Source: Bacteroidia bacterium (GTDB lineage: Bacteria; Bacteroidota; Bacteroidia; Chitinophagales; UBA2359). From it: a stretch of 64,000 bases of DNA. Positions 5,653 to 30,908 of the stretch are shown in pieces. The stretch covers positions 1 to 64,000 of the forward strand of contig JAUHXA010000004.1 in NCBI GenBank assembly GCA_030427245.1. Direction: 5' to 3'. Numbering within the stretch: position 1 is the stretch's first letter; every line of letters starts with the position of its first letter. Made by a program: the position numbers and the translations under genes. A model generated the notes under the pieces. The model had not been told where the DNA came from, did not search any database, and saw nothing but the letters and a program-made list of their open reading frames with translations.

Positions 5653-8600
5653 CTAAAACAATTTCCGATAAAGCACCACCTCCGAAATATTACTCTCCGA
5701 ACTCTCCAAAGTCACTCGCACATACCTCGTCCGTACATTCTCCACAACCCCCTTCCAAAGCCCATAACTCTCCAAGTGATCGCTAAACAATTCCGTCCAA
5801 TCACCAGGACTACCAACCGAAATAGTAATATCCCCTTTGCTATCCATATCACGGATATAAAACTTCGTCAAATCCGTTTCGGCGCCCAAGTCGATATAAG
5901 CATGAACAGGGTACGAAACATTGCCATCCGTAGAAGGTCGCCAGACAGTCGTAGGCGTACCACCCTTGTTGGCAGGTTCACCCGCTATGGTTTGTTCATC
6001 CACAAGTAGTTGAGCATTTCCTTTACCCGATTCATTGACGACCATAGAAGGAGTCAAGGTCATTTTGGTGTCCAAAGTATGGCGGATAGGCAACTCATTG
6101 TAGTTACCAGCCATCACAAAAACAGGGCGTTCGCTTACGTTGATGTTCACTCGGTTGTTGGCGATGGACAGTTGATTTACAACACCATCTTTGTCACCAT
6201 GCTGCATTTCTACCAAGTAGGCATTGCTTTCACCATTCAATTGAAGGCTGTAATTATTGACCGTAGTGCCATCGCTTGTAGGTGACCAAACAGCGTACAG
6301 TGCATCTCCACTTTCTTTGTGGCGGAATTGGTAAATCCATACATTCGGGTTGCCGCTCGGGATTTCCTTTTCAAAAGCCATTCCTGTGAAGCGGTTTTTC
6401 ATCGTATAAACGTAGTACCAACTTGGTTTTGGAGTCCAGTCGCCTTTGGGTCCCATCAATCCACACGTTTGAAACAAGTAGGGAGAGTTGGCGGCTACAT
6501 CTCTAAGCATGTACATGGCTGCTTTATCCACTCCTGCGGCTGCCAAAGCCAAGTAAGAACGAACCATCCATTGACCTTGTACTTCTTCGCTGTCGTAAGG
6601 ACCGATATTTGGCGCACCTTGGATGGATTCAGAATTGGAGTCGTAGCCAAATTCGGTAATCCACACCTCTACACCTGGCAAATAACGGTCACGGTAGTCC
6701 ACAAACTTTTTCATTACTCCTTTCAAATCATCGTCTTCTGGGCTGATACCGACCGAACCCAAACTGCGCTGTGCTTCTCCGTCATTGCAGTAGTGATGCA
6801 CGTTGATGACATCGAGTGGGAAGTCGCCGCCTCTGTGGTGGTCGCTCCAAAATTTGAGGGTGCGAACGTGGTCCAAGTGTGGAACAGCTACACCACTCAT
6901 GACTACTTTTGCAGTCGGGTCAGCTGCTTTGATTCCTTTGTTGGGACCCAATGCGCCCAAATGTCCGTCAGCGTCCGCACTTGCCATTGCAGCATATTCA
7001 TAAGGCGTAAAGTAGGCTTTGCGGTTCATCCACCAAGCATCTTGCTCGTTCCAATTCTCGAAGTATTTCAAGACTCCCAAACCGCTGACTCTCGGTTGGT
7101 CGGCTCTCAATTTGAGGTTGGCATCGGGAACTTGGGTGTGTCCAAATCTTGCAGCGAATTGATACATATAGTCTGCGTGTTCGATGTAAGAATGTGGGTC
7201 GGTGGCATCTCTGCCGTCCAATACAGGTTTTTCGTCCAGTTTCCATTCTTCGTAGCCTGTCATGAAGAGTGTTGAGCGCAACAAAGAAGGCGAAACGGTG
7301 ATGCCTGCGTTCAATAAGTTTTGGTAGTATCTATCAAAGTTCCAGTTTACTGCGCCGGGATTGAAGGCACATTCGTTGTTGGGATAGCCCACGTAGTTCA
7401 CATCTTGGTTTCCTTCGTCCCACAACCATTGGTGGTATTCCCGAATAAAACCCGCTACTTCCATATTGCCATTCGGGTCGTCAATGAATGCATTGATGCC
7501 AATGAATTGGTCCACTGCTGGACGTTCATGAGCGATAGGAGCAGGCACTGTTTCGGTGATGGGGCTTTGAGCAGCACCGTACAGCACTATTTCCGACATC
7601 CTTGTGGCTGGGGCTGTGATTTCTAATCGGATATAGCGGGTAGTAATCGGGTTGTTGGAGTAATCGTGCTTACTCCACTGGTCGGGCTTGTTCATTTCGT
7701 CGCTAAAGAGCGGTGTCCAATTGAAGGGCGTTCCGATGGATACATTGATGGGTTCGTTGGGCGTTGCGGTGGTTTTGTTACCATCGTTGTAGAGGAATAT
7801 TTTGGAGATTTCGTAGTCTGTGCGTAAGTCAATCAGCGCAAAACCGGGGTACAGCCACGGATTGCCGCCCATTGTCCAGTAGTTCACAGGTGCTTCGCCA
7901 TCGCCTTTTTCGGGTTCTCCAACGAGTAGTTGTTCGTCCACCAATTGCGTAGCATCACCTTGTACGGATTCGTTCAAAATCATTGCCGGGGTCAAGCTGA
8001 TTTTCTTGTGTGCGCCGCCAACTATCAAATCCGTTTTGCCTTCCGCCATGTTGGAGAGTGCGCCCAAATTGAAGTTTTCGTCCACGCCTTGTAGTACAAA
8101 ATAGTAGTTTACATTGTCGCCCAAGTCTTTGACCAATACCGATTGTTTCACGCCTTTGTTAGCAGGAGCCAACATTCCGTGATACATCGCTGCGTCTTTG
8201 ATATTTTTGGAGGTGATGGGAACGGCACTGTATCGGAGCAAGTAGTAGTCCGCTTTGCCATTGTTACCATCTTCACCTGGAGCCGTCCAACTGAGTTCTA
8301 CCGTTGAAGTTGTCGAATGGGTAGATTCCAAATCGGTGATGGCTCCTGGCAAAGTGGTGTCTGGAATTTGGGAATGGGCTTCTTTCCCGTATAAGACAAG
8401 TTCTGATACATTGCTCCCCGCCTCCATTTTGCTGATGCGAAGGTAGCGTGTATAGACTTTTACATCATGTTGTGTCCAAGATAAGTAACCTGTGAGATTA
8501 TCCGTCAATAATTCGGTCCAATTTCCCGGATAACCGTAAGAAATTCGCAAATCGCCCGCATTGCTGCCATCGTACAAGAAAATTTGGCTGATTTCGAAGG

Positions 8601-11600
8601 CTTCTCCCAAGTCAATATAACCGTGAGCAGGGTGTTTGATATTCGGTCCCCAACCTGTATGCCAAGTCGTCATCGGCACACCGCCCACACTGTTTTGTAC
8701 GTCGCCCGCCAAATTTTGTTCGTCCACCAACTCACGAGGGTCGCCAAATCCGCTTTCGTCCGTCACCATTGAAGGATTCAAAGTCAATTTGCTGACTGCT
8801 CCCAGCGTTTTCGTAGTCGTTGAAGTAGTGTTGGAAAATCCTGTCACCGCACCGTTTTCATCCGAGGTTTTGATGGCAAAATAGAACGTTTGGTTGGGCT
8901 GCAATTCGTTCACCAAAATCATTTGCTTCGAGCCACCCTTTGAAGGTAACAAAAGGTTTTTGACCTTCGATGCGCTGTTGAAGTTGGCAGTCGTAATGTT
9001 GGAAGTGCTGTATCGAATGTCGTATTGCGCTGCCGTACTGCTCACTGTCCAAGACAATTGGGTAGAAAAAGCGGTGGTATTCAATGCCTTCAAATCGGTA
9101 ATCGTTGTGGGCGCATTGCTGTAATCTTCCTCCTCACCCTCTTCTTCTTCAATGATTTCTTTGGTTTGCGCTTCTGCAATATTGGACAATGCCGAAACAT
9201 TTTGCATCTCATCTTTTACCTTCAATGCGAAATAGTAGCGTGTATTGGGCTGCAATCCCTTCACTTCCATCCCTTGAAAACTACCTGCTGCAAGGGGCGC
9301 AATCGGGTTGTTAATTACTGTGGCATTCGCAAAATTGGCAGCGGTGATGGGGCTATTACTGTATCGAATTTCGTAGCTTTTGGCTGTTCCTTCCATACCG
9401 TCATCACCTGTTGCTGTCCAATTGAGCCAAAGATTGGTTTCTCCTACTTCGGTGATGTTCAAATCTGTGATGGCTGCGGGTGCAATGGCATCCGTTTCTT
9501 CTTCTTGTGGTCTTGTGGTCGCTTCCGCAATATTGGAAATTTTGGAAACATTGGGCATTTCATCCATTGCCTTCAATGCGAAATAATAGGTCGTATTGGG
9601 CTGCAATTCGCTCACTTCAATACTTTCTTGCTCGCCAGCCAATTGAGGCACAAGATTTTGACTAATTTCCGTTGCATCTGCAAAATTGGCAGCGTCAATC
9701 ATATCGGTGCTGTACCTGATTTCATACGCTGCGGCTGTTCCTTCAATTCCATCGTCACCTGTGGCTCTCCAAGTCAAAGTCAAAGCGGTTTCGGTGATGT
9801 CCGTAGCATCTAAATCTGCAATCGCTGCGGGCAAAATAGCATCGGTTTCTTCTTGTTCGGGGCGGGTGTTCGCTGTCGCAATATTGGAAATAGCAGAGGC
9901 ATTCGGTACTTCATCCATCACCTTCACTGCAAAATAATAGCGGGTGTCGGGCTGCAATTCGCTCACTGCAATGCTTTCTATTTTGCCTGCTGATTGAGGT
10001 GAAAGGTTTTGGTTTACTTCCATTGCATTCGCAAAATTGGCTGCGGTGATTTCTTCGGTGCTGTATCGAACTTCATAAGAGTCAGCAATTCCTTCAAAAC
10101 CATCGTCACCCGTTGCGCTCCAATTCAAGGTCAAAGTTGTTTCGCCAACCTCGCTTGCTTCCAAATCTGCAATGGCAGCAGGGGCTTTGGTGTCGATATT
10201 GATTTCACCATCACCGCCATTTTCACCTACCATGCTACCATACAAGACGACTTCCGCAAAGTTGGATTTAGAAGAGGCTCTGCTGAATCGGAGGTAACGG
10301 GTCTCGACATTGACGCTGTGTTGTTTCCATTGAAGGAAATTGTCCATCGCTTCTTCAGTCAAATACACCCAACTCCCAGGCGCACCGTATTCAATCGTCA
10401 CATCGCCTACATCGTGGGTATCAAACAAAAAGATTTCCTTCAATTCGTACATTGCACCCAAATCCAAATACACACTTGCAGGGTACAAGTCGCTGTTCCA
10501 ACCGGGAAACCAAACCGTTTCGGGTTCACCACCAAAGCCATTCATCGGGTCTCCTGCAACATCTTGTTCATCCATCAACTTGTCCGCATCTCCTTCTCCT
10601 ACTTCATTCACTGCAACGGCATTGAACAAGTTGATTTTACCAAAAACATTGCTCTCACCCAAAGTTTTGCCAGTCGCAATATTGGACAAAGGCGACACAT
10701 TGAAGGCTTCGTCAAGAGCTTTCACTGCAAAGTGGTATTCCGTTCCTTCCAACAAATTGGTCAGTGTAATGCTCTGTTTTTCTCCCGCTTCTTTGGGCTG
10801 CAAATTTTGGGCAAAAACCATCGAGCTGCTGAAATTGTCATTGGTAATCGGAGACAATCCATAGCGAATATCGTACTGTCGGGCTGTCCCTTCGTTGGCA
10901 TCGTCTCCAACGGCTGTCCACTCCAATGTTGCAGTCGTCGCAGTCGTTTGTTTGACCTGCAAATCCACGATTTGGGCAGGAGCTTTTTCGTCATCGCTTG
11001 CCGCACCTGCTTCTTGACCATACAATAATATTTCGGAAATATTGGAGGCAGAGGATTCACGGGTGATGCGAACATAGCGGGTGGTCACATCGGTTTCGTG
11101 TCGATTCCATTGGAGATAGTTGCTCAAACCATCCACAAACAAAGGAATCCAATTGCCAGGATAACCATATTCTACCAAAATATCGCCTGTGTTGTTCACA
11201 TCAAACAGATAGATTTCCTTCAAATCGTACTGTTTGCCGAGGTCAATATAGGCACTTGCTGGATGAAAAGCGGGATTCCAACCAGGAAACCAAATCGTAG
11301 TCGGCACGCCTCCAATGTCGTTCAGTGGGTCGCCCGCAAATTCTTGCTCATCGACCAACAAACGGGCATCGCCATTGTTGGTTTCGTTGGTTATCATTGA
11401 AGTAGTCAGTTCGATGCGTTCTGTGGTTTGGGCGTTGGTTGTGAGGTTTAGAAATAGGAGGCATAAAATGATGGTTGCAATTTTGAAGGTGTATTCACTG
11501 AATAATGCTTTTGCAAAACCAACGCAGACATCCCCCTTGCCCCCTTCAAAGGGGGAATTACTCTTGCCTTCAAACATCCCCTTTGTCATCCACGCTAAAA

Positions 11601-11898
11601 CTCCCCCTTTGAAGGGGGTTGGGGGGATGTTACATAAAGTGGGATTCAATTTAATACTGCCAACTGCCACTTTTTGCTGCAAGAAAATAGTGTTGCCTGT
11701 GGGCATTTCTGCGCTATGTGTTGGGGCAGTTGTCATGAATTTAGAGTGATGGGCGGTTTGAAATGGAAATCCGCCTGTGATGTCCATAACTTGTCCCGAA
11801 ACCTCGGGATTTGGACAAGGATTTGAAAGTAAAATAACTTGTCCCGAAATCTCGGGATTTAGAGTAGATATATTTTTATTTTGTGATTTCATGGTCAC
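5653..11898 (-). CDS. Giant secreted protein: five discoidin-like modules, six FnIII domains and a GH-A-type glycosidase domain
   Basis: 2081 residues as the frame stands. The modules start after a signal peptide ending LLFLNLTTNAQ. Five repeats of about 130 residues with the pattern NES.xGDA..LVDEQ..AGDP...WxPG ... YIDLG ... TRYVR ... SEIxLYG look like discoidin/galactose-binding modules. Six FnIII domains carry APAAIADL ... LxWxATGDDG ... YYFAVK. A roughly 450-residue TIM-barrel-like domain follows, with FENWNEQDAW (likely acid/base Glu) and EVWITEFGYDS (likely nucleophile Glu), as in clan GH-A glycosidases; the exact GH family is not clear. It ends with a discoidin module and has no obvious T9SS tail. 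The first roughly 115 residues before the signal peptide are made of palindromic repeat DNA read in frame. The true start is therefore uncertain: 11898 or 11892, or a start nearer the signal peptide. A role in binding and cleaving polysaccharide is likely. Confidence 0.82.
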   Translation of the reverse strand: MTMKSQNKNISTLNPEISGQVILLSNPCPNPEVSGQVMDITGGFPFQTAHHSKFMTTAPTHSAEMPTGNTIFLQQKVAVGSIKLNPTLCNIPPTPFKGGVLAWMTKGMFEGKSNSPFEGGKGDVCVGFAKALFSEYTFKIATIILCLLFLNLTTNAQTTERIELTTSMITNETNNGDARLLVDEQEFAGDPLNDIGGVPTTIWFPGWNPAFHPASAYIDLGKQYDLKEIYLFDVNNTGDILVEYGYPGNWIPLFVDGLSNYLQWNRHETDVTTRYVRITRESSASNISEILLYGQEAGAASDDEKAPAQIVDLQVKQTTATTATLEWTAVGDDANEGTARQYDIRYGLSPITNDNFSSSMVFAQNLQPKEAGEKQSITLTNLLEGTEYHFAVKALDEAFNVSPLSNIATGKTLGESNVFGKINLFNAVAVNEVGEGDADKLMDEQDVAGDPMNGFGGEPETVWFPGWNSDLYPASVYLDLGAMYELKEIFLFDTHDVGDVTIEYGAPGSWVYLTEEAMDNFLQWKQHSVNVETRYLRFSRASSKSNFAEVVLYGSMVGENGGDGEINIDTKAPAAIADLEASEVGETTLTLNWSATGDDGFEGIADSYEVRYSTEEITAANFANAMEVNQNLSPQSAGKIESIAVSELQPDTRYYFAVKVMDEVPNASAISNIATANTRPEQEETDAILPAAIADLDATDITETALTLTWRATGDDGIEGTAAAYEIRYSTDMIDAANFADATEISQNLVPQLAGEQESIEVSELQPNTTYYFALKAMDEMPNVSKISNIAEATTRPQEEETDAIAPAAITDLNITEVGETNLWLNWTATGDDGMEGTAKSYEIRYSNSPITAANFANATVINNPIAPLAAGSFQGMEVKGLQPNTRYYFALKVKDEMQNVSALSNIAEAQTKEIIEEEEGEEEDYSNAPTTITDLKALNTTAFSTQLSWTVSSTAAQYDIRYSTSNITTANFNSASKVKNLLLPSKGGSKQMILVNELQPNQTFYFAIKTSDENGAVTGFSNTTSTTTKTLGAVSKLTLNPSMVTDESGFGDPRELVDEQNLAGDVQNSVGGVPMTTWHTGWGPNIKHPAHGYIDLGEAFEISQIFLYDGSNAGDLRISYGYPGNWTELLTDNLTGYLSWTQHDVKVYTRYLRISKMEAGSNVSELVLYGKEAHSQIPDTTLPGAITDLESTHSTTSTVELSWTAPGEDGNNGKADYYLLRYSAVPITSKNIKDAAMYHGMLAPANKGVKQSVLVKDLGDNVNYYFVLQGVDENFNLGALSNMAEGKTDLIVGGAHKKISLTPAMILNESVQGDATQLVDEQLLVGEPEKGDGEAPVNYWTMGGNPWLYPGFALIDLRTDYEISKIFLYNDGNKTTATPNEPINVSIGTPFNWTPLFSDEMNKPDQWSKHDYSNNPITTRYIRLEITAPATRMSEIVLYGAAQSPITETVPAPIAHERPAVDQFIGINAFIDDPNGNMEVAGFIREYHQWLWDEGNQDVNYVGYPNNECAFNPGAVNWNFDRYYQNLLNAGITVSPSLLRSTLFMTGYEEWKLDEKPVLDGRDATDPHSYIEHADYMYQFAARFGHTQVPDANLKLRADQPRVSGLGVLKYFENWNEQDAWWMNRKAYFTPYEYAAMASADADGHLGALGPNKGIKAADPTAKVVMSGVAVPHLDHVRTLKFWSDHHRGGDFPLDVINVHHYCNDGEAQRSLGSVGISPEDDDLKGVMKKFVDYRDRYLPGVEVWITEFGYDSNSESIQGAPNIGPYDSEEVQGQWMVRSYLALAAAGVDKAAMYMLRDVAANSPYLFQTCGLMGPKGDWTPKPSWYYVYTMKNRFTGMAFEKEIPSGNPNVWIYQFRHKESGDALYAVWSPTSDGTTVNNYSLQLNGESNAYLVEMQHGDKDGVVNQLSIANNRVNINVSERPVFVMAGNYNELPIRHTLDTKMTLTPSMVVNESGKGNAQLLVDEQTIAGEPANKGGTPTTVWRPSTDGNVSYPVHAYIDLGAETDLTKFYIRDMDSKGDITISVGSPGDWTELFSDHLESYGLWKGVVENVRTRYVRVTLESSESNISEVVLYRKLF
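11528..11631. repeat. Palindromic repeat of the CCCCCTTTGAAGGGGG family, inside the 5' end of a reading frame
   Basis: Two inverted halves are seen: acatcccccttg...cccccttcaaaggggg at 11528-11555 and ccccctttgaagggggttgg...gggatgtt at 11603-11631. The same arrangement, including the flanking acatccccc/gggggatgtt ends, recurs at 30730-30806. It lies within the N-terminal part of the 2081-residue frame, upstream of its signal peptide, and keeps that frame open. Dispersed palindromes of this type are common in Bacteroidota genomes; a mobility mechanism is not shown here. Confidence 0.7.
11783..11866. repeat. Two copies of a short palindrome cttgtcccgaa(a)nctcggga
   Basis: The unit aacttgtcccgaaacctcggg and its near-copy aacttgtcccgaaatctcggg occur about 50 bases apart as direct repeats; each contains the small palindrome cccgaaa..tcggg. 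They fall within the first 40 codons of the 2081-residue frame and encode the repeated peptide PE(I/V)SGQV. A related palindrome (accgagaaatcgggg) occurs at about 32449. Confidence 0.6.
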
Positions 11899-12239
11899 TT
11901 ATATTTATTTATGGGATTTGGAAAATGGGAAATAGTGGGCTTGTTGAATGGTGGACGGTGGACGGTGGACGAACTACGGGAATTGGGTTTTGAATACTGT
12001 TTTTCTTTAAAACTTTAATGCAGTATTCTATTTATTGATATTTCCACACAAGATTCCTTCGGAATGACAAAAGAAAGACAAATGTCATATTGTAAATATC
12101 CTGTGGCTAAATATGACTAAACTTAGTATCAGTCAGATATTCTTCAAAAAACACAAATCTTTTATCTGAGAAAATCAACCTGTTCGAGTTAAAACCCAAA
12201 CTACTAAACCGTCTGTCGTCAATCATCAGCCGTCTACCG
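11899..12239. other. 341-bp intergenic region with small repeats
   Basis: No gene is supported here. It holds a short tandem of the unit gtggacg (about 11950-11972), a copy of the dispersed palindrome cacaagattccttcggaatgac (12047-12068; a longer variant is at 55029-55071), and AT-rich DNA. It must contain the promoter of the minus-strand giant gene, but I see no clear TAnnTTTG box. Confidence 0.5.
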
Positions 12240-24560: not shown

Positions 24561-24614
24561 AAGTATCGAGATGATAGACAACTCATTGAAATATTGAGTA
24601 TAAAAACCGAAATC

Positions 24615-25991
24615 ATGAAAAACACCTACCTATTTTTCTTTTGTATCTGCTTTTTGGCTCAATCTTCCTTTGCCCAATCTTTTGAAGGCTACCAAAAAAA
24701 AGCCTTGCTTATTGGCAATTACGTTTATAAAGATTACCCTCATTTACCCAACACAAAAACAGACATCAACCTTCTCGGAAACAAATTGTACTCTTTTGGC
24801 TTTGAAGTAACTATGGTGGAAGATTCCCATAAGATTACCCAACAAGTACAGCAATTTTATGCAGAAGAATCTGATAGTGTTTTGTACTTTTTGTATTATG
24901 CGGGTTATGTAGGTGCGGTTGAGAACCAACCTGTTTTGGTTTCGGTAGGTGATTCCTCCAAAAAATCAGAATTTTTGGGTTTATCCGAAATCATCCAATT
25001 TCCGAAGGCAAAAAACAGCATGAATTTTTTGGTGTTGGATTGGGCGAGTTTGAACATCCAAAAAGAGATTATTGATGCACATATTGGAGTGAATTGGGAA
25101 AAATGGAGAGGAAAGCCCAAAGACAATTTCGAGATTCAAGATTATGTAAGCCGCACTTTTCCCAACTTTACGGAAAAAAACGTCTTGGTGATGCACCAAA
25201 AAAGTTTTCACCGAAATTACAGCTATGTAGAAAAATTGGTGGAAAGCCTTCAAAATGAATATGAAGCACTGCAAAAAGTTTTCAACAAATTGGAGTTTGA
25301 CATTCCCCGAACCCATTCTATTTTAGGAGGTTGGGGAACGAATGATGTCTTGACCCGTTCTTTCTTTTCAGGTATTCCTCCTTCTATGCCCGCTTTTCCG
25401 TTTCCTCCACCCGATGCCTCTGCCCATTATTCACTACCCAATGGATATTTTAGAGATTCCATCAGCCTTTACGATGTCAATACACAATTATTGGCTGCTT
25501 TAGAAGCCTGCTATTATTATGAAAATAGCTACCACCAAATCCCCAAAGGTTTTGCAATGGTGACGAGAATCGAAAAAATCAAGGAAGATGGAACGCCCTA
25601 TCCCGATACTGAACGTTGGGAGGCACATCAACCTATTCCGTCTGATACACCATTTAGTTTTTTTGCTTACTTCCGATCCTTGTTTCAAGCCAAGATAGGC
25701 ACTTATCGAATCATCGTATTTTTGGTTACCTCTGAGGGAATCCATGAAACGAAAGATAAAATGAGCATGGTCGCCGCCAAAAACTATTTATCAGGTGGCT
25801 GGAAAACTCTGCCCAATGAGTTTAAGGAAATGGAGTTCACCGATGACTATCATTGTGCTGCCCTTATCTATGAATTTGTGAAGCACGAACATGAAGAAGC
25901 AATCTTGGTGACAGAATCAAAACATCTTGGCAAAACACATTTAGAGAAAAGTAATTTTTTAAAAAACTTAGCCTATCTATCTGATAAATAG
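24615..25991 (+). CDS. Pseudo-caspase (peptidase C14-like fold, catalytic residues lost) with shared C-terminal domain
   Basis: 458 residues from ATG 24615 (signal peptide MKNTYLFFFCICFLAQ, SSFAQ). Residues about 25-165 follow the caspase-like pattern of the next gene: KALLIGN start, NTKTDINLLGNKL helix, VLYFLYYAGYVG strand and FLVLDWAS strand. The histidine of the usual YxGHG is Tyr here, and the cysteine of LDACR is Ala (LDWAS), so it should not cleave peptides. From about residue 254 (SMPAFPFPPPDASA) to the end it carries the same roughly 200-residue domain as the next gene, including GTYRIIVFLVTSEGIHE, LIYEFVKHEHEEA and GKTHLEKSNFLKNL. This tail domain recurs in Bacteroidota caspases, but I know no function for it. 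The stop is 17 bp before the active paralogue. It probably acts as a regulator or scaffold of that paralogue. Confidence 0.75.
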   Translation: MKNTYLFFFCICFLAQSSFAQSFEGYQKKALLIGNYVYKDYPHLPNTKTDINLLGNKLYSFGFEVTMVEDSHKITQQVQQFYAEESDSVLYFLYYAGYVGAVENQPVLVSVGDSSKKSEFLGLSEIIQFPKAKNSMNFLVLDWASLNIQKEIIDAHIGVNWEKWRGKPKDNFEIQDYVSRTFPNFTEKNVLVMHQKSFHRNYSYVEKLVESLQNEYEALQKVFNKLEFDIPRTHSILGGWGTNDVLTRSFFSGIPPSMPAFPFPPPDASAHYSLPNGYFRDSISLYDVNTQLLAALEACYYYENSYHQIPKGFAMVTRIEKIKEDGTPYPDTERWEAHQPIPSDTPFSFFAYFRSLFQAKIGTYRIIVFLVTSEGIHETKDKMSMVAAKNYLSGGWKTLPNEFKEMEFTDDYHCAALIYEFVKHEHEEAILVTESKHLGKTHLEKSNFLKNLAYLSDK

Positions 25992-25996
25992 CCCAA
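25687..25996 (+). repeat. 310-bp direct repeat, copy 1
   Basis: Identical base for base, by my reading, to 27120-27429. It covers the last 101 codons, the stop and a few bases beyond, of the pseudo-caspase and caspase genes. Upstream of it the two genes remain similar to about 25379/26815 but with many changes, so the identical block suggests recent gene conversion. Confidence 0.88.
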
Positions 25997-26008
25997 AACC
26001 TTCACAAA

Positions 26009-27424
26009 ATGAAAAAACAACTATTATCTCTTATTCTACTCCTGTTTGTTCAAACTCTTTTTGCACAACTTAGCTCAAAGAAATCTCCTTGGAACCTTCG
26101 TAATTCCAAGTCCCAACAAACAGCTTTGGTGATTGCAAATACCAACTACAAACATGGAGACAGACTAAATGCTCCAATTCTTGCAGCTCAAAAATTGGTT
26201 GCTACCTTGAAAAAACAAGGTATGACTGTATCAAAAGGATATAACCTCAATCGAGTGCAATTATTGAAGGTATTTCAAGATTTTGCGAGCGAACTTAAAG
26301 ACCATGACTTTGGCATTGTCTTCTATTTGGGGCATGGTTTTCAGATAGATGGAGAAAATTACCTCATTCCCATAGATGCCAATCCACAAACGAAGGAGGA
26401 AGTCAAGGACGATGCAATTAATCTGGGCGATGTGCTGAAACTGATGAACAATCCGCAAAAACCCAAAGTCATGGTCTTAGATGCCTGCCGCAACAATCCC
26501 TTTGAAAAAAACTGGACATCAGCAGAACGCAGCACTCTCAAAGATGGCTTCAATGCAGTGCAAGGACCAAGCAATACAGAAATCCTCTTTTCTACCCAAA
26601 AGAACAGCAAAGTTCGAGACGACAATCCCTACATCTCCTACTTCACGGAAGAACTCAATAAAAGAGGCTGCTTAAAAGATATGGTTCGCAACATCAACCG
26701 ACGAATGTTGCAATCTGGCAGCCAGCAAATTCCTGCTAGGTATGGCTTGCTATTGGAGAATGTGTGTTTTGGTCGTGGCAGTAATAGTAATGTGATAGTA
26801 ACTAAACCTTCCAGTTTTATGCCCGCTTTTCCGTTTCCTCCACCCGATGCTTCTGCATATCATTCTCTGCCCAATGAGTATTTTAGAGATTCCATCAGCC
26901 TCTACGATGTCAATACACAATTATTGGCTGCTTTAGAAGCCTGCTATTACTATGAAAACAGTTACTACCAAATCCCCAAAGGTTTTGCAATGGTGACGAG
27001 AATCGAAAGAATCAAGGAAGATGGAACCCCTTATCCAGGTCCTGAACGCTGGGAGGTAAACGAACTTACTCAGTCCAAACGCCGATTTAGCTTTTTGACT
27101 TACTTCCAATCCTTGTTTAAAGCCAAGATAGGCACTTATCGAATCATCGTATTTTTGGTTACCTCTGAGGGAATCCATGAAACGAAAGATAAAATGAGCA
27201 TGGTCGCCGCCAAAAACTATTTATCAGGTGGCTGGAAAACTCTGCCCAATGAGTTTAAGGAAATGGAGTTCACCGATGACTATCATTGTGCTGCCCTTAT
27301 CTATGAATTTGTGAAGCACGAACATGAAGAAGCAATCTTGGTGACAGAATCAAAACATCTTGGCAAAACACATTTAGAGAAAAGTAATTTTTTAAAAAAC
27401 TTAGCCTATCTATCTGATAAATAG
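26009..27424 (+). CDS. Caspase-like protease (peptidase C14) with C-terminal sensor-like domain
   Basis: 471 residues. The signal peptide is MKKQLLSLILLLFVQTLFAQ, so the protease acts outside the cytoplasm. The p20-like domain (about 36-235) has TALVIANTNYKHGDRLNAP, the catalytic His109 in FYLGHGFQIDGENYLIP, and Cys160 in VMVLDACRNNPF. The prokaryotic caspase motif SNTEILFSTQKNSKVRDDNPYISYFTEEL follows. Bacterial members cut after Arg/Lys or Asp and often execute cell death. The C-terminal 200 residues match the pseudo-caspase upstream, with a 310-bp identical tract. It starts 17 bp after that gene and 12 bp before the EAD11-like membrane protein, so all four genes are likely one transcript. 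The substrate is unknown. Confidence 0.88.
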   Translation: MKKQLLSLILLLFVQTLFAQLSSKKSPWNLRNSKSQQTALVIANTNYKHGDRLNAPILAAQKLVATLKKQGMTVSKGYNLNRVQLLKVFQDFASELKDHDFGIVFYLGHGFQIDGENYLIPIDANPQTKEEVKDDAINLGDVLKLMNNPQKPKVMVLDACRNNPFEKNWTSAERSTLKDGFNAVQGPSNTEILFSTQKNSKVRDDNPYISYFTEELNKRGCLKDMVRNINRRMLQSGSQQIPARYGLLLENVCFGRGSNSNVIVTKPSSFMPAFPFPPPDASAYHSLPNEYFRDSISLYDVNTQLLAALEACYYYENSYYQIPKGFAMVTRIERIKEDGTPYPGPERWEVNELTQSKRRFSFLTYFQSLFKAKIGTYRIIVFLVTSEGIHETKDKMSMVAAKNYLSGGWKTLPNEFKEMEFTDDYHCAALIYEFVKHEHEEAILVTESKHLGKTHLEKSNFLKNLAYLSDK

Positions 27425-27429
27425 CCCAA
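27120..27429 (+). repeat. 310-bp direct repeat, copy 2
   Basis: Partner of 25687-25996, 1433 bp apart. It encodes the C-terminal 101 residues of the active caspase. Recombination between the two copies would delete the active caspase and fuse the pseudo-caspase to its promoterless tail. Confidence 0.88.
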
Positions 27430-27436
27430 CAGTCCT

Positions 27437-28060
27437 ATGAAATCTAAACTCCAATCTACCTATCTCCCCTTGCTTCTAAGCACGGTTTTATTGCTGATGG
27501 TCGTTGCTCAGAACAGAGGCAACATATACGGTTCCTACGCTTTGTTTTCGTGGGCTTGGTTGTTAGTAGTGCTGCTGCCTTTGTTGTTGAAAATTTTGCT
27601 TCCTCAATATCCTGTTTTTGAAGCCCGTTTTTTGAAGATAAGTCCTTTATTGGCAATGGGTTTTATTTTTCTACAAGGCTTGATTTCCATACACCCTATT
27701 TATCTCTTAGGTATTCATTTGATAGGCTATCTGCCGCTTTTTTTCCTTCAAGTTTATGCTTACAAAACCCAAACAACTGGTGCCCTTGTTGATTCTGTAA
27801 ACGAATTAAAAAAACTGGAGTCTATAAAGGTTAATGAATGTAAAAACTACATCATCAAAGGTCGCCTCAATCGCGCTTTTGATGTACTGCAAGAAAATTT
27901 AGATGAAAAATACGCTGCCTATGAAACTTTTATATTGTTGAGTCAACAATGGCACAAAGTAGAAAGAGAACGAACACAAGGTATTATGACGACCGAACAG
28001 GCAGGCGTAGAAAATGTTCGACTTACCAAAGCCCTTTTGCAATTATTAAAAACAGCTTAA
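27437..28060 (+). CDS. Four-TM membrane protein with C-terminal Effector-Associated Domain 11-like module
   Basis: 207 residues. Four hydrophobic helices lie at about residues 8-24, 36-55, 66-84 and 87-107. The C-terminal 75 residues (KNYIIKGRLNRAFDVLQENLDEKYAAYETFILLSQQWHKVERERTQGIMTTEQAGVENVRLTKALLQLL) follow the pattern of EAD11: a K/R-G-xLxxAL helix, an xxLLSxxxxxxERxxxxGI core, and an E-x-N/V-R-L-x-xALL helix. EADs are death-like adaptor modules that pair with a matching copy on another component of bacterial conflict systems. With four helices and a basic N-terminus the EAD should face the cytoplasm, whereas the neighbouring caspases carry signal peptides. A matching EAD11 is not seen in the window. 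The EAD11 identification is by pattern and would benefit from a profile search. Confidence 0.65.
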   Translation: MKSKLQSTYLPLLLSTVLLLMVVAQNRGNIYGSYALFSWAWLLVVLLPLLLKILLPQYPVFEARFLKISPLLAMGFIFLQGLISIHPIYLLGIHLIGYLPLFFLQVYAYKTQTTGALVDSVNELKKLESIKVNECKNYIIKGRLNRAFDVLQENLDEKYAAYETFILLSQQWHKVERERTQGIMTTEQAGVENVRLTKALLQLLKTA

Positions 28061-28091
28061 TATATAATAATAAATTATTAAAAATAATGAC

Positions 28092-29717
28092 ATGAAAACC
28101 AAAATTATACTCCTTTTCCTACTCATCCCCCATCTCCTCTCCGCCCAAAGCTACTACCGCAATTGGACGGTGAAATCCAACACCCAAAAAGAAAAAATCG
28201 CCTTGGTGATTGCCAACAACTACTACAAAAGTGGCGGTCAATTGGTCGCACCGATTCCAACTGCAAAGAAATTGGCTACTAAACTCAAAAGCAAGGACAT
28301 AGACGTAATGGTGGGGCACGACCTCAGCAGAATTCAGATGTTGCAGATATTCCAAGAATTTGCGAACGAACTGAAGGATTATCAATTTGGTATTGTCTTT
28401 TATTTGGGGCATGGCTTTCAGATAGAGGGTGAGAACTATCTGATTCCCGTAGATGCGAATCCGCAAACGAAGTGGGAGGTAAAGTACAGTGCCGTCAATG
28501 TGGACGATGTATTGAAGCTCATGAACTATCCACAAAAACCCAAAGTCATTGTATTGGATGCTTGCCGAAACAACCCTTTTGAGCAGCACTGGACTTCAGC
28601 AGAACGCAGTGGCAACAGAGATGGCTTCAATGCGGTACCTGCTCCAAGCAACTCCGAAATCCTTTTCACCACCCAAAAAAACAGCAAAGTTCGAGACAAC
28701 AATCCCTACATTCAATACTTCATGGAAGAACTCGACAAAGGGGGATGTTTAGACGATATGGTACGCAACATCAGCCGAAGAATACTAAAATCTGGGAATC
28801 AACAAGTTCCTGCCAAATATGGCTTGTTATTGGACAAGGTGTGTTTTGGTCAAATGGCGGTAAGTGGCGCTTCAACCTCTTCTTTTAGTATCAAAAAACC
28901 TACAACAGTAACCTTTTCTGAAACTAAAGAAAATAGTTTTAAACTAACCGCCAAAAAGCTCGACTTTATCCCCGAAAACATGGTCTTTGTAGAAGGGGGT
29001 AGTTTTGAAATGGGCTGTGTGACAGGCGACTCCAACTGTGGGAGTGATGAAAAGCCAGCGCATCAAGTGACTTTAGACGACTTCTACATCGGCAAATACG
29101 AAGTGACCAATGCCGAGTTCTGCGAGTTCTTGAATGTCAAAGGCAACAAAACCGAAGGAGGAGCAACTTGGTTGGATATTGAAAGTAGTGCTTGCCAAAT
29201 CGAATACAAAAACAACAAATATATACCCAAATCTGGATATAGTCAATATCCTGTCATTGAAGTAACTTGGTATGGAGCGAATGCGTATGCTCAATGGAAG
29301 GGAATGAGATTGCCAACCGAAGCAGAGTGGGAATATGCGGCAAGAAGTCGGGGAAAAAGTGAGATATGGGCGGGAACTTCAACGGAAAATAGTTTGGATA
29401 AATATGCAAATTACTATGGCGACAAAGATGGCTACAGCAAAACCGCTCCTGTAGGAAAATTTCAGCCAAATGATTTGGGAGTATATGATATGAGCGGCAA
29501 TGTTTGGGAATGGTGTGCAGATTGGTACGATTCGGCTTACTACAAAAACAGTCCGAAATCCAATCCTGTCAATCAGACGAAAGCCACCTATCGCGTTTTG
29601 CGCGGCGGTAGCTGGGCCATTAATGCAGTCAATTGTCGGTCGTCTAATCGCTACTACTACTTTCCTGGCAACAGCCTCAACGACTACGGCTTCCGCCTTG
29701 CCCATAGTTTGAAGTAG
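28092..29717 (+). CDS. Caspase fused to FGE/C-type-lectin-like domain; DGR target protein
   Basis: 541 residues with signal peptide MKTKIILLFLLIPHLLSAQ. The caspase domain (about 34-255) keeps His107 (FYLGHGFQIEGENYLIP) and Cys158 (VIVLDACRNNPF) and closely parallels the second gene of the operon. A linker (about 256-295) leads to a formylglycine-generating-enzyme/SUMF1-type domain (296-541) with MVFVEGGSFEMGC, FYIGKYEVTNAEFCEF, GMRLPTEAEWEYAARS, DMSGNVWEWCADW and RVLRGGSW...GFRLAHS. In DGR systems this fold serves as a variable binding domain, not an enzyme. Residues 501-539 are the VR, whose codons 509, 510, 521-524, 526, 529, 531 and 532 differ from the template only at template adenines. 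It is the sensor-plus-effector of the cassette. The last gene before a terminator, 31 bp after the EAD11-like gene. Confidence 0.93.
   Translation: MKTKIILLFLLIPHLLSAQSYYRNWTVKSNTQKEKIALVIANNYYKSGGQLVAPIPTAKKLATKLKSKDIDVMVGHDLSRIQMLQIFQEFANELKDYQFGIVFYLGHGFQIEGENYLIPVDANPQTKWEVKYSAVNVDDVLKLMNYPQKPKVIVLDACRNNPFEQHWTSAERSGNRDGFNAVPAPSNSEILFTTQKNSKVRDNNPYIQYFMEELDKGGCLDDMVRNISRRILKSGNQQVPAKYGLLLDKVCFGQMAVSGASTSSFSIKKPTTVTFSETKENSFKLTAKKLDFIPENMVFVEGGSFEMGCVTGDSNCGSDEKPAHQVTLDDFYIGKYEVTNAEFCEFLNVKGNKTEGGATWLDIESSACQIEYKNNKYIPKSGYSQYPVIEVTWYGANAYAQWKGMRLPTEAEWEYAARSRGKSEIWAGTSTENSLDKYANYYGDKDGYSKTAPVGKFQPNDLGVYDMSGNVWEWCADWYDSAYYKNSPKSNPVNQTKATYRVLRGGSWAINAVNCRSSNRYYYFPGNSLNDYGFRLAHSLK
29592..29707 (+). 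repeat. DGR variable repeat (VR), 116 bp
   Basis: Aligned without gaps to the TR at 30311-30426, it has 103 identical positions and 13 substitutions. All 13 lie opposite an A in the TR (A to T, G or C); no C, G or T of the TR is changed. It covers the last 39 codons but two of the caspase-FGE gene. The invariant 3' block ggcttccgccttgcccatag is probably the homing initiation region (IMH). Confidence 0.96.
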
Positions 29718-29762
29718 CGGTTCATTCCATTCCAATTTTTGAGCTAAAGAACGAGTAGGCTG

Positions 29763-29795
29763 GTTTCGTGAGTACGAAGCGTTGCGGTAGCAGCG
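29763..29795 (+). other. Two adjacent tetraloop hairpins downstream of the VR
   Basis: Stem 1 pairs 29763-29769 with 29774-29780 (seven pairs with one G-T, loop gagt). Stem 2 pairs 29780-29785 with 29790-29795 (six pairs with one G-T, loop ggta). They share base 29780, so they are alternatives or stack. In the Bordetella phage DGR a small tetraloop hairpin downstream of VR stimulates homing. Here the distance from VR is about 55 bp, so the same role is only a suggestion. Confidence 0.5.
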
Positions 29796-29830
29796 AGAAC
29801 GAAACGAAACAAAGCTTACTCGAAGGGGGT

Positions 29831-29858
29831 TTGGGGGCTTGCCCCCAATGATTTTTTT
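29831..29858 (+). terminator. Intrinsic terminator after the caspase operon
   Basis: ttgggggc (29831-29838) pairs with gcccccaa (29841-29848), followed by tgattttttt. It separates the VR gene from the DGR accessory gene, which starts 30 bp downstream, so read-through or a separate promoter would be needed for the latter. Confidence 0.75.
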
Positions 29859-29878
29859 CAAAATAAAATTTTTTTTTG

Positions 29879-30247
29879 ATGCAAATTCAATTATTTACCA
29901 TACCCGTTTTGGATAATGTAACTGCTTTGAAGGAGATGAACCAATTTTTGCGGGGACATAGAATATTGGATGTTCAGCAGAGGTTTGTTGCTGCCGAGCA
30001 TGGGGCTTATTGGAGTTTTAGTATTCGGTATCTTTTGAGTGCTATCAAAGAACAGGGAGGAAAGTTGGTAGGCAATAATCAGAAGAAAAAGAAGATAGAT
30101 TACAAGACTACCCTAAGCGAGGATGCGTTCAAAGTGTTTTCTCTATTGAGGGTGTGTAGAAAAGAAATCGCTCAAGAAGATGCAGTACCTGCTTATAGAA
30201 TACCAAAGGCATATTTTGCCTTTGTTGGCATTTACCCAATATGCTAG
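29879..30247 (+). CDS. DGR accessory protein of the HRDC type, truncated
   Basis: 122 residues from ATG 29879. The N-terminus (MQIQLFTIPVLDNVTALKEM, NQFLRGHRILDVQQRFV, AYWSFSIRYL) and the following KIDYKTTLSEDAFKVFSLLRVCRKEIAQEDAVPAY match the HRDC-family accessory proteins that accompany many DGRs and likely bind nucleic acid. In intact members the HRDC continues after PAY with a segment like (A/T)IFTNEQLA and about 45 more residues. Here the frame turns into RIPKAYFAFVGIYPIC and stops, at a small palindrome (aaaggca-tattt-tgccttt, 30203-30221). The gene therefore looks broken inside the HRDC motif. It lies between VR and TR, as expected for a DGR. Confidence 0.72.
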   Translation: MQIQLFTIPVLDNVTALKEMNQFLRGHRILDVQQRFVAAEHGAYWSFSIRYLLSAIKEQGGKLVGNNQKKKKIDYKTTLSEDAFKVFSLLRVCRKEIAQEDAVPAYRIPKAYFAFVGIYPIC

Positions 30248-30310
30248 CACTAAAAAACTTAGACAAGAAATAATTGAGAAACTTGAAGGGCAATCATCGT
30301 AGGGACTCAG

Positions 30311-30426
30311 CGCGTTTTGCGCGGCGGTAGCTGGAACAATAATGCAGTCAATTGTCGGTCGTCTAATCGCAACAACAACAATCCTGACAACAGCAACAAC
30401 AACAACGGCTTCCGCCTTGCCCATAG
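30311..30426 (+). repeat. DGR template repeat (TR), 116 bp
   Basis: Partner of the VR at 29592-29707. It reads through as RVLRGGSWNNNAVNCRSSNR, NNNNPDNSNNNNGFRLAHS, so nearly every diversifiable position is an AAC/AAT Asn codon. This is typical of DGR templates, where adenine mutagenesis of AAC gives fifteen residues and never a stop. It sits 63 bp after the truncated HRDC gene. The RT that normally follows is missing. Confidence 0.96.
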
Positions 30427-30509
30427 CTCAAAAATTGGATGGATGTCTGCTTCATGAACAGATGATTGTCCTGTTCTTCCTCTTTGGAGGTGAGACAAAT
30501 AGAATGAAC

Positions 30510-30605
30510 AACTATCCAACTAGTAGGCAAGTGACCGAAAGTTGGATAGTTTTGTATTTTAGGAATTGAAAAATGTCGGCGAACCTAAAGGTGTCGCCGA
30601 CATTT
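30510..30605 (+). repeat. Two strong hairpins downstream of the TR
   Basis: aactatccaact (30510-30521) pairs perfectly with 30540-30551 and is followed by ttgtatttt, so it may be a terminator of the TR transcript. aaatgtcggcga (30571-30582) pairs perfectly with tcgccgacattt (30594-30605), with a second palindrome acctaaaggt in its loop. No coding frame crosses them. In a complete DGR the reverse transcriptase gene would be expected here. Confidence 0.65.
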
Positions 30606-30653
30606 GAAATCACTGTCGCTTCAATTGTCGCCGAGTTTGGAAAAAATACAGGT

Positions 30654-30872
30654 TTTCTTATCGCAGGATAGGGTTTATTAGTTTTCAAAAATTATTTCGT
30701 GTTTCTCTGATTACTCTAAACCCCTGTGCAACATCCCCCCCCCCGCCCCCTTCAAAGAGGGAGTTTTGGCGTGAATTCCCCCTTTGAAGGGGGTTAGGGG
30801 GATGTTAGGCAAAGTGTGGAAAACCACGAAGTAAATATCGAAAGTGAATAAATCCACCCCTGCGATAAGAAA
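30654..30872. repeat. 219-bp long imperfect palindrome (MITE-like)
   Basis: The ends are a perfect 14-bp inverted repeat (tttcttatcgcagg at 30654-30667, cctgcgataagaaa at 30859-30872). Inside, weaker inverted matches (attatttcgtgttt against the complement of aaaccacgaagtaaat) lead to a core at 30730-30806 of the acatccccc...ccccctttgaagggggtta...gggatgtt family, shared with 11528-11631. No open frame. It fills the gap between TR and the C1 peptidase gene, the position where an RT gene would lie. Confidence 0.7.
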
Positions 30873-30908
30873 CAACGATTTTCAGATCAAAATATAATTA
30901 CAAAAACC

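Follow-up and report, generated by a model that had tools for sequence, protein, structure and literature searches.

A DGR normally carries a reverse transcriptase (RT) near its template repeat (TR), which raises the question of how to read a locus of a Bacteroidia bacterium (GCA_030427245.1, contig JAUHXA010000004.1) that has a TR, no RT frame beside it and a broken HRDC accessory gene. A preliminary description of the window, that is, the whole stretch of 64,000 nucleotides analyzed, offered two options: a recently frozen DGR with its target fixed at one state of the variable repeat (VR), or an RT acting from elsewhere on the chromosome. The first proved the best supported of the two. As seen in one draft assembly, the locus is very probably a recently frozen, degenerate DGR of the HRDC class, with a caspase-FGE/C-type-lectin target, that was left in this state by a single deletion of ~1.04–1.06 kb (Table 1).

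Table 1 Features of the degenerate DGR locus (coordinates of the window)
Feature	Position	Strand	Remarks
EAD11 protein	27437-28060		Between second and third caspase genes, adjoining target gene
DGR target gene	28092-29717	+	Signal-peptide-like N-terminus, caspase (Peptidase_C14), FGE-sulfatase/C-type-lectin domain (Pfam matches)
VR, variable repeat	29592-29707	+	3′ end of target gene; 89% identical to TR
Long hairpin 3′ of VR	29752-29822	+	29700-29880 folds as DNA with z = -3.0; occurs once in genome
HRDC-type DGR accessory gene	29879-30196	+	Codons 1-106 intact, C-terminus lost to deletion; frame continues to 30247 in RT-derived sequence
Deletion junction	30196-30198	+	HRDC codon 106 joined to ~RT codon 301; ~1.04-1.06 kb probably lost
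RT remnant	30198-30302	+	Last 34 codons and stop of HRDC-class DGR RT; out of HRDC frame
TR, template repeat	30311-30426	+	Copy of VR
Conserved structured RNA element 3′ of TR	30422-30559	+	Model R1, 85 bits, E = 1.7e-18; model R2, 39.5 bits
Terminator-like hairpin ending RNA element	30507-30556	+	UAGUAG/CGAAAG internal loop
Imperfect palindrome, 219 bp	30654-30872		Dispersed repeat

Target gene and repeats

The product of the target gene matched PF00656 (5.1e-23) and PF03781 (6.8e-65), the latter spanning residues 295–537 of the 541-residue protein, and the VR occupies the 3′ end of the gene. Over 116 nt, TR and VR differ at 13 positions, every one of them an adenine in the TR, which holds 34 adenines (hypergeometric P = 1.7e-8 for this pattern); the remaining 82 non-adenine sites show no differences. 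Such a pattern is what adenine-specific DGR retrohoming leaves behind. Other VRs matching the TR, a possibility raised in the preliminary description, were absent from a search of the whole genome, and no other TR in the genome matches the VR of the window. Target-site hairpins are known from phage BPP-1, and the long hairpin 3′ of the VR may be a similar one.

Three tandem caspase-domain genes occupy the region 24600–29717 of the window; the C-terminal halves of the first two are nearly identical, and only the third carries a VR. Caspase-type targets beside an EAD11 protein are in keeping with DGR-linked conflict systems (PMC7159879).

Gene order in intact relatives

An uncultured Saprospiraceae bacterium (L020) encodes a relative of the HRDC protein, and further relatives come from genomes within the same family and class. 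All parts were resolved at nine loci (L020, L025, L026, L027, L028, L151, L152, L153 and L155), each with the order VR, HRDC, RT, TR; at a tenth, L154, HRDC, RT and a TR-like repeat are present and the VR is not resolved. At L152, one target gene lies upstream of HRDC and a second stands between RT and TR; the VRs of both differ from the TR at adenines only (19 and 22 sites). Left out were L157–L159, whose HRDC-like proteins score low and have no DGR RT beside them, and L160, in which the RT is cut by the contig end. No HRDC-class accessory genes were found in viral contigs, and viral RT matches were only ~35–42% identical.

This synteny changes where an RT should be sought. The preliminary description had proposed checking relatives for one between TR and the gene for the C1 peptidase, but 9/9 relatives place it upstream of TR, between HRDC and TR, and its absence downstream of TR is therefore uninformative. 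The preliminary description was right that this part of the window contains no intact RT frame, and the hairpins and 219-bp palindrome that it placed 3′ of TR are present. The palindrome was ruled out as a part of the DGR, being a member of a dispersed repeat for which 64 genomic matches were found, several of them spanning most of its length. With these parts assigned, the window follows the order of the HRDC class as a degenerate member: VR, HRDC, RT remnant, TR and RNA element.

Evidence for a single deletion

The HRDC frame matched its profile with 157.7 bits over positions 1–102 of 154 and is homologous to relatives as far as the PAY motif (Y codon TAT, 30194–30196), after which it reads 16 residues unrelated to theirs and ends in the stop at 30247. 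Those 16 residues stem from RT sequence translated out of its own frame. Alignments with relatives thus agree with the preliminary description that the frame breaks directly after PAY and that C-terminal residues are lost, but put the loss somewhat above its figure of ~45, as relatives extend 53–66 residues past the motif. The small palindrome noted at the break falls within coding sequence derived from the RT, immediately beyond the junction, and nothing ties it causally to the break. No intact Avd, HRDC or similar accessory protein is encoded at the locus, where the HRDC gene stops after codon 106, and a profile search of the genome (G000) revealed no second HRDC accessory gene; the other HRDC profile match listed there was rejected, as the frame that holds it, at 724 aa, has a RecQ-like length.

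The interval between HRDC and TR contains a C-terminal RT remnant that the preliminary description had overlooked. It translates as EYQRHILPLLAFTQYASTKKLRQEIIEKLEGQSS, followed by a stop, and corresponds to residues ~301 to the C-terminus of HRDC-class RTs (17/29 identical to L025 and 18/30 to L154). Searching the whole genome with the RT of L025 recovered it at 47% identity to RT residues 291–328 (E = 7.5e-5), and an RT profile built without the remnant matched it at profile positions 290–330 of 330 (32.6 bits). When compared with 500 shuffles, its score exceeded all of them against 9 of 10 relatives and tied with the best shuffle against L153. The RT stop and the TR are separated by 8 bp, compared with gaps of 18 bp (L025), 36 bp (L020) and 111 bp (L028) in relatives. 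These last 34 codons are all that the locus retains of a DGR RT.

Homology to the RT begins at GAA 30198, immediately past the point at which HRDC homology stops, and the equivalent points in five intact relatives are 1039, 1039, 1042, 1058 and 1063 bp apart. This matching spacing, together with the remnant in the HRDC–TR interval, points to one event behind both anomalies: a single deletion of ~1.04–1.06 kb would explain the truncated HRDC gene as well as the absent RT. The locus resembles intact HRDC-class DGRs (L020, L025–L028 and L151–L155) in its FGE/C-type-lectin target with VR, its HRDC gene, its TR, its 3′ RNA element and the class of its surviving RT C-terminus, but it differs from them in what the deletion removed, namely the HRDC C-terminus and ~300 of 330 RT residues (~90% of the RT). 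A functional HRDC–RT fusion was ruled out by the junction, which is out of frame.

Other reverse transcriptases and the RNA element

We surveyed the whole genome (7.58 Mb, completeness 100%) for RTs and found two RVT_1 genes, both on other contigs (C26 and C131), and no HRDC-class RT elsewhere in a genome-wide search. The RT on C26 (L004, 6456–7841), which has a PQGACTSP motif and a long coiled N-terminus, was rejected as a donor: its motif (LPQGACTSP) is not of DGR type and its best PHROG is another family. The RT on C131 (L003) belongs to a complete second DGR of the Avd class (6652–12083), comprising an RT with GLPIGNLTSQ, a bAvd, a TR (8290–8423) and a VR (8579–8712) in a 1168-aa FGE-sulfatase protein, with 16/17 TR/VR differences at adenines. 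A DGR-type RT, which the preliminary description had proposed seeking genome-wide, is thus present, the only one found in the genome, but it is of another class with its own Avd, TR and VR. Its identity to HRDC-class RTs is 35–40%, versus 44–61% within the HRDC class, and the remnant gives no alignment with it.

The sequence 3′ of TR forms an RNA element with covariation in 13/15 pairs, which was detected with a model built from ten relatives with the window excluded (R1) and with a model of the terminal hairpin (R2). The same element lies 3′ of TR in L020, L025–L028 and L151–L155. Its UAGUAG/CGAAAG loop resembles the sarcin-ricin type AGUA/GAA motif. The terminal hairpin was also found behind the Avd-class TR of C131 (L003, 8125–8173, minus strand; R2, 22.1 bits, E = 0.005, best in 20 kb) and is apparently common to HRDC-class DGRs and this Avd-class DGR, but R1 detected no element there, the proximal part being missing. 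The Rfam family RT-14 (RF02921) aligned end to end with the TR tails of both the window and C131 at scores below its gathering score of 48.1 bits (window, 29.4; L025, 42.5; L155, 29.7; C131, 22.9). Its match in the window lies just 3′ of TR and is best in the terminal UAGUA...CGAA hairpin, whereas the 5′ half of RT-14 does not fit. Because several elements match it at such sub-threshold scores, RT-14 may be a DGR template-RNA tail.

Alternative readings

The second option of the preliminary description, an RT acting from elsewhere, has a candidate in the C131 RT, which would use the TR RNA of the window and diversify its VR in trans. We consider this unlikely. It would draw on a complete DGR in the same genome, with RT, bAvd, TR and VR, and on a C131 TR tail that ends in the same type of hairpin and shares the sub-threshold RT-14 alignment; the clean TR and VR and the intact RNA element of the window also fit ongoing activity. 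Nevertheless, the C131 RT is not of the cognate class, has the low identity to HRDC-class RTs given above, uses a different accessory protein and lacks the proximal part of the RNA element behind its TR. Activity in trans on degenerate loci has been inferred for Thiohalocapsa PB-PSB1, where matching TR/VR sequences shared by several loci within a class support it (PMC10907252), whereas no other TR matches the VR of the window and the RT still present in this genome belongs to another class. Cross-class rescue is conceivable given the terminal hairpin shared by both TRs; a DGR deprived of its own RT and HRDC protein might be sustained by an RT–Avd pair of another class that recognizes the TR RNA via the UAGUAG/CGAAAG hairpin, which we rate as slightly less probable again.

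It is more doubtful still that the deletion is an artifact of assembly or binning, or is confined to part of a population with an intact allele in the source. The draft genome consists of 187 contigs, and long reads from Thiohalocapsa showed intact structural variants of seemingly broken DGR loci (PMC10907252). However, the junction lies inside a 195-kb contig, no orphan fragment of an HRDC-class RT was found on any other contig, and contamination is only 0.43% at the full completeness noted above. Finally, the paralogous caspase genes and other duplicated stretches nearby might suggest that the TR is a mere decayed duplicate of the lectin-domain end and no DGR template, but this reading is contradicted by the all-adenine differences and by the placement of HRDC, RT remnant and RNA element around the TR as in intact DGRs, and has next to no probability.

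Age of the loss and comparable loci

A recently frozen DGR is therefore the reading that we carry forward. The locus would once have been complete, with a target gene carrying the VR, an HRDC accessory gene, an RT, a TR and a structured RNA tail. Comparison with relatives indicates that a single deletion fused HRDC codon 106 with RT codon ~301; both proteins were destroyed, whereas VR, TR and RNA tail escaped. With its cognate RT and accessory protein gone, the locus would make no mutagenized TR cDNA in cis and the target would stay fixed at one VR state. Beyond the deletion itself, nothing at the locus appears decayed, and the undecayed TR, VR and RNA element suggest that the machinery was lost recently, or at least that homing last took place recently. 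The absence of change at 82 non-adenine sites sets a 95% upper bound of ~3.6% on accumulated change; intact relatives have 0 to 10 non-adenine differences per repeat pair. Because TR and VR show no non-adenine change and the RNA element is intact, the last homing was probably recent in evolutionary terms, or the VR site is still served.

A similar state was observed in another genome, G352 (99% complete), where a VR-type target gene precedes an HRDC gene that is cut short after PGIGEP, near its end (L156, contig C46, 2902–3839, minus strand), and no HRDC-class RT was detected. At least two more target-like genes, with repeats that are related, are located on its contigs C10 and C53. As this case parallels that of the window, DGRs seem to have lost their machinery and kept their targets on more than one occasion.

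Degenerate DGR loci have already been described, and the locus in the window is a clean new example. HRDC accessory genes are known from Treponema denticola, of which isolates without RT and TR keep remnant target genes (PMC4891356). As there, the core machinery has been lost and the target survives; unlike those isolates, which lost the TR too (PMC4891356), the window keeps TR, RNA element and RT remnant. The degenerate loci of Thiohalocapsa PB-PSB1 likewise have missing or pseudogenized machinery, targets resembling conflict systems and complete DGRs elsewhere in the genome (PMC10907252).

The locus provides a base-level snapshot of the death of a DGR, with the machinery probably gone in one deletion and template and target left clean. 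Loci of this sort would be overlooked by surveys that start from the RT. The comparison also revealed that the TR of HRDC-class DGRs is followed by a covarying RNA element, the last hairpin of which is apparently shared with an Avd-class DGR, and the genome that carries both offers a natural test case of whether DGR RTs can serve the template RNAs of another class.
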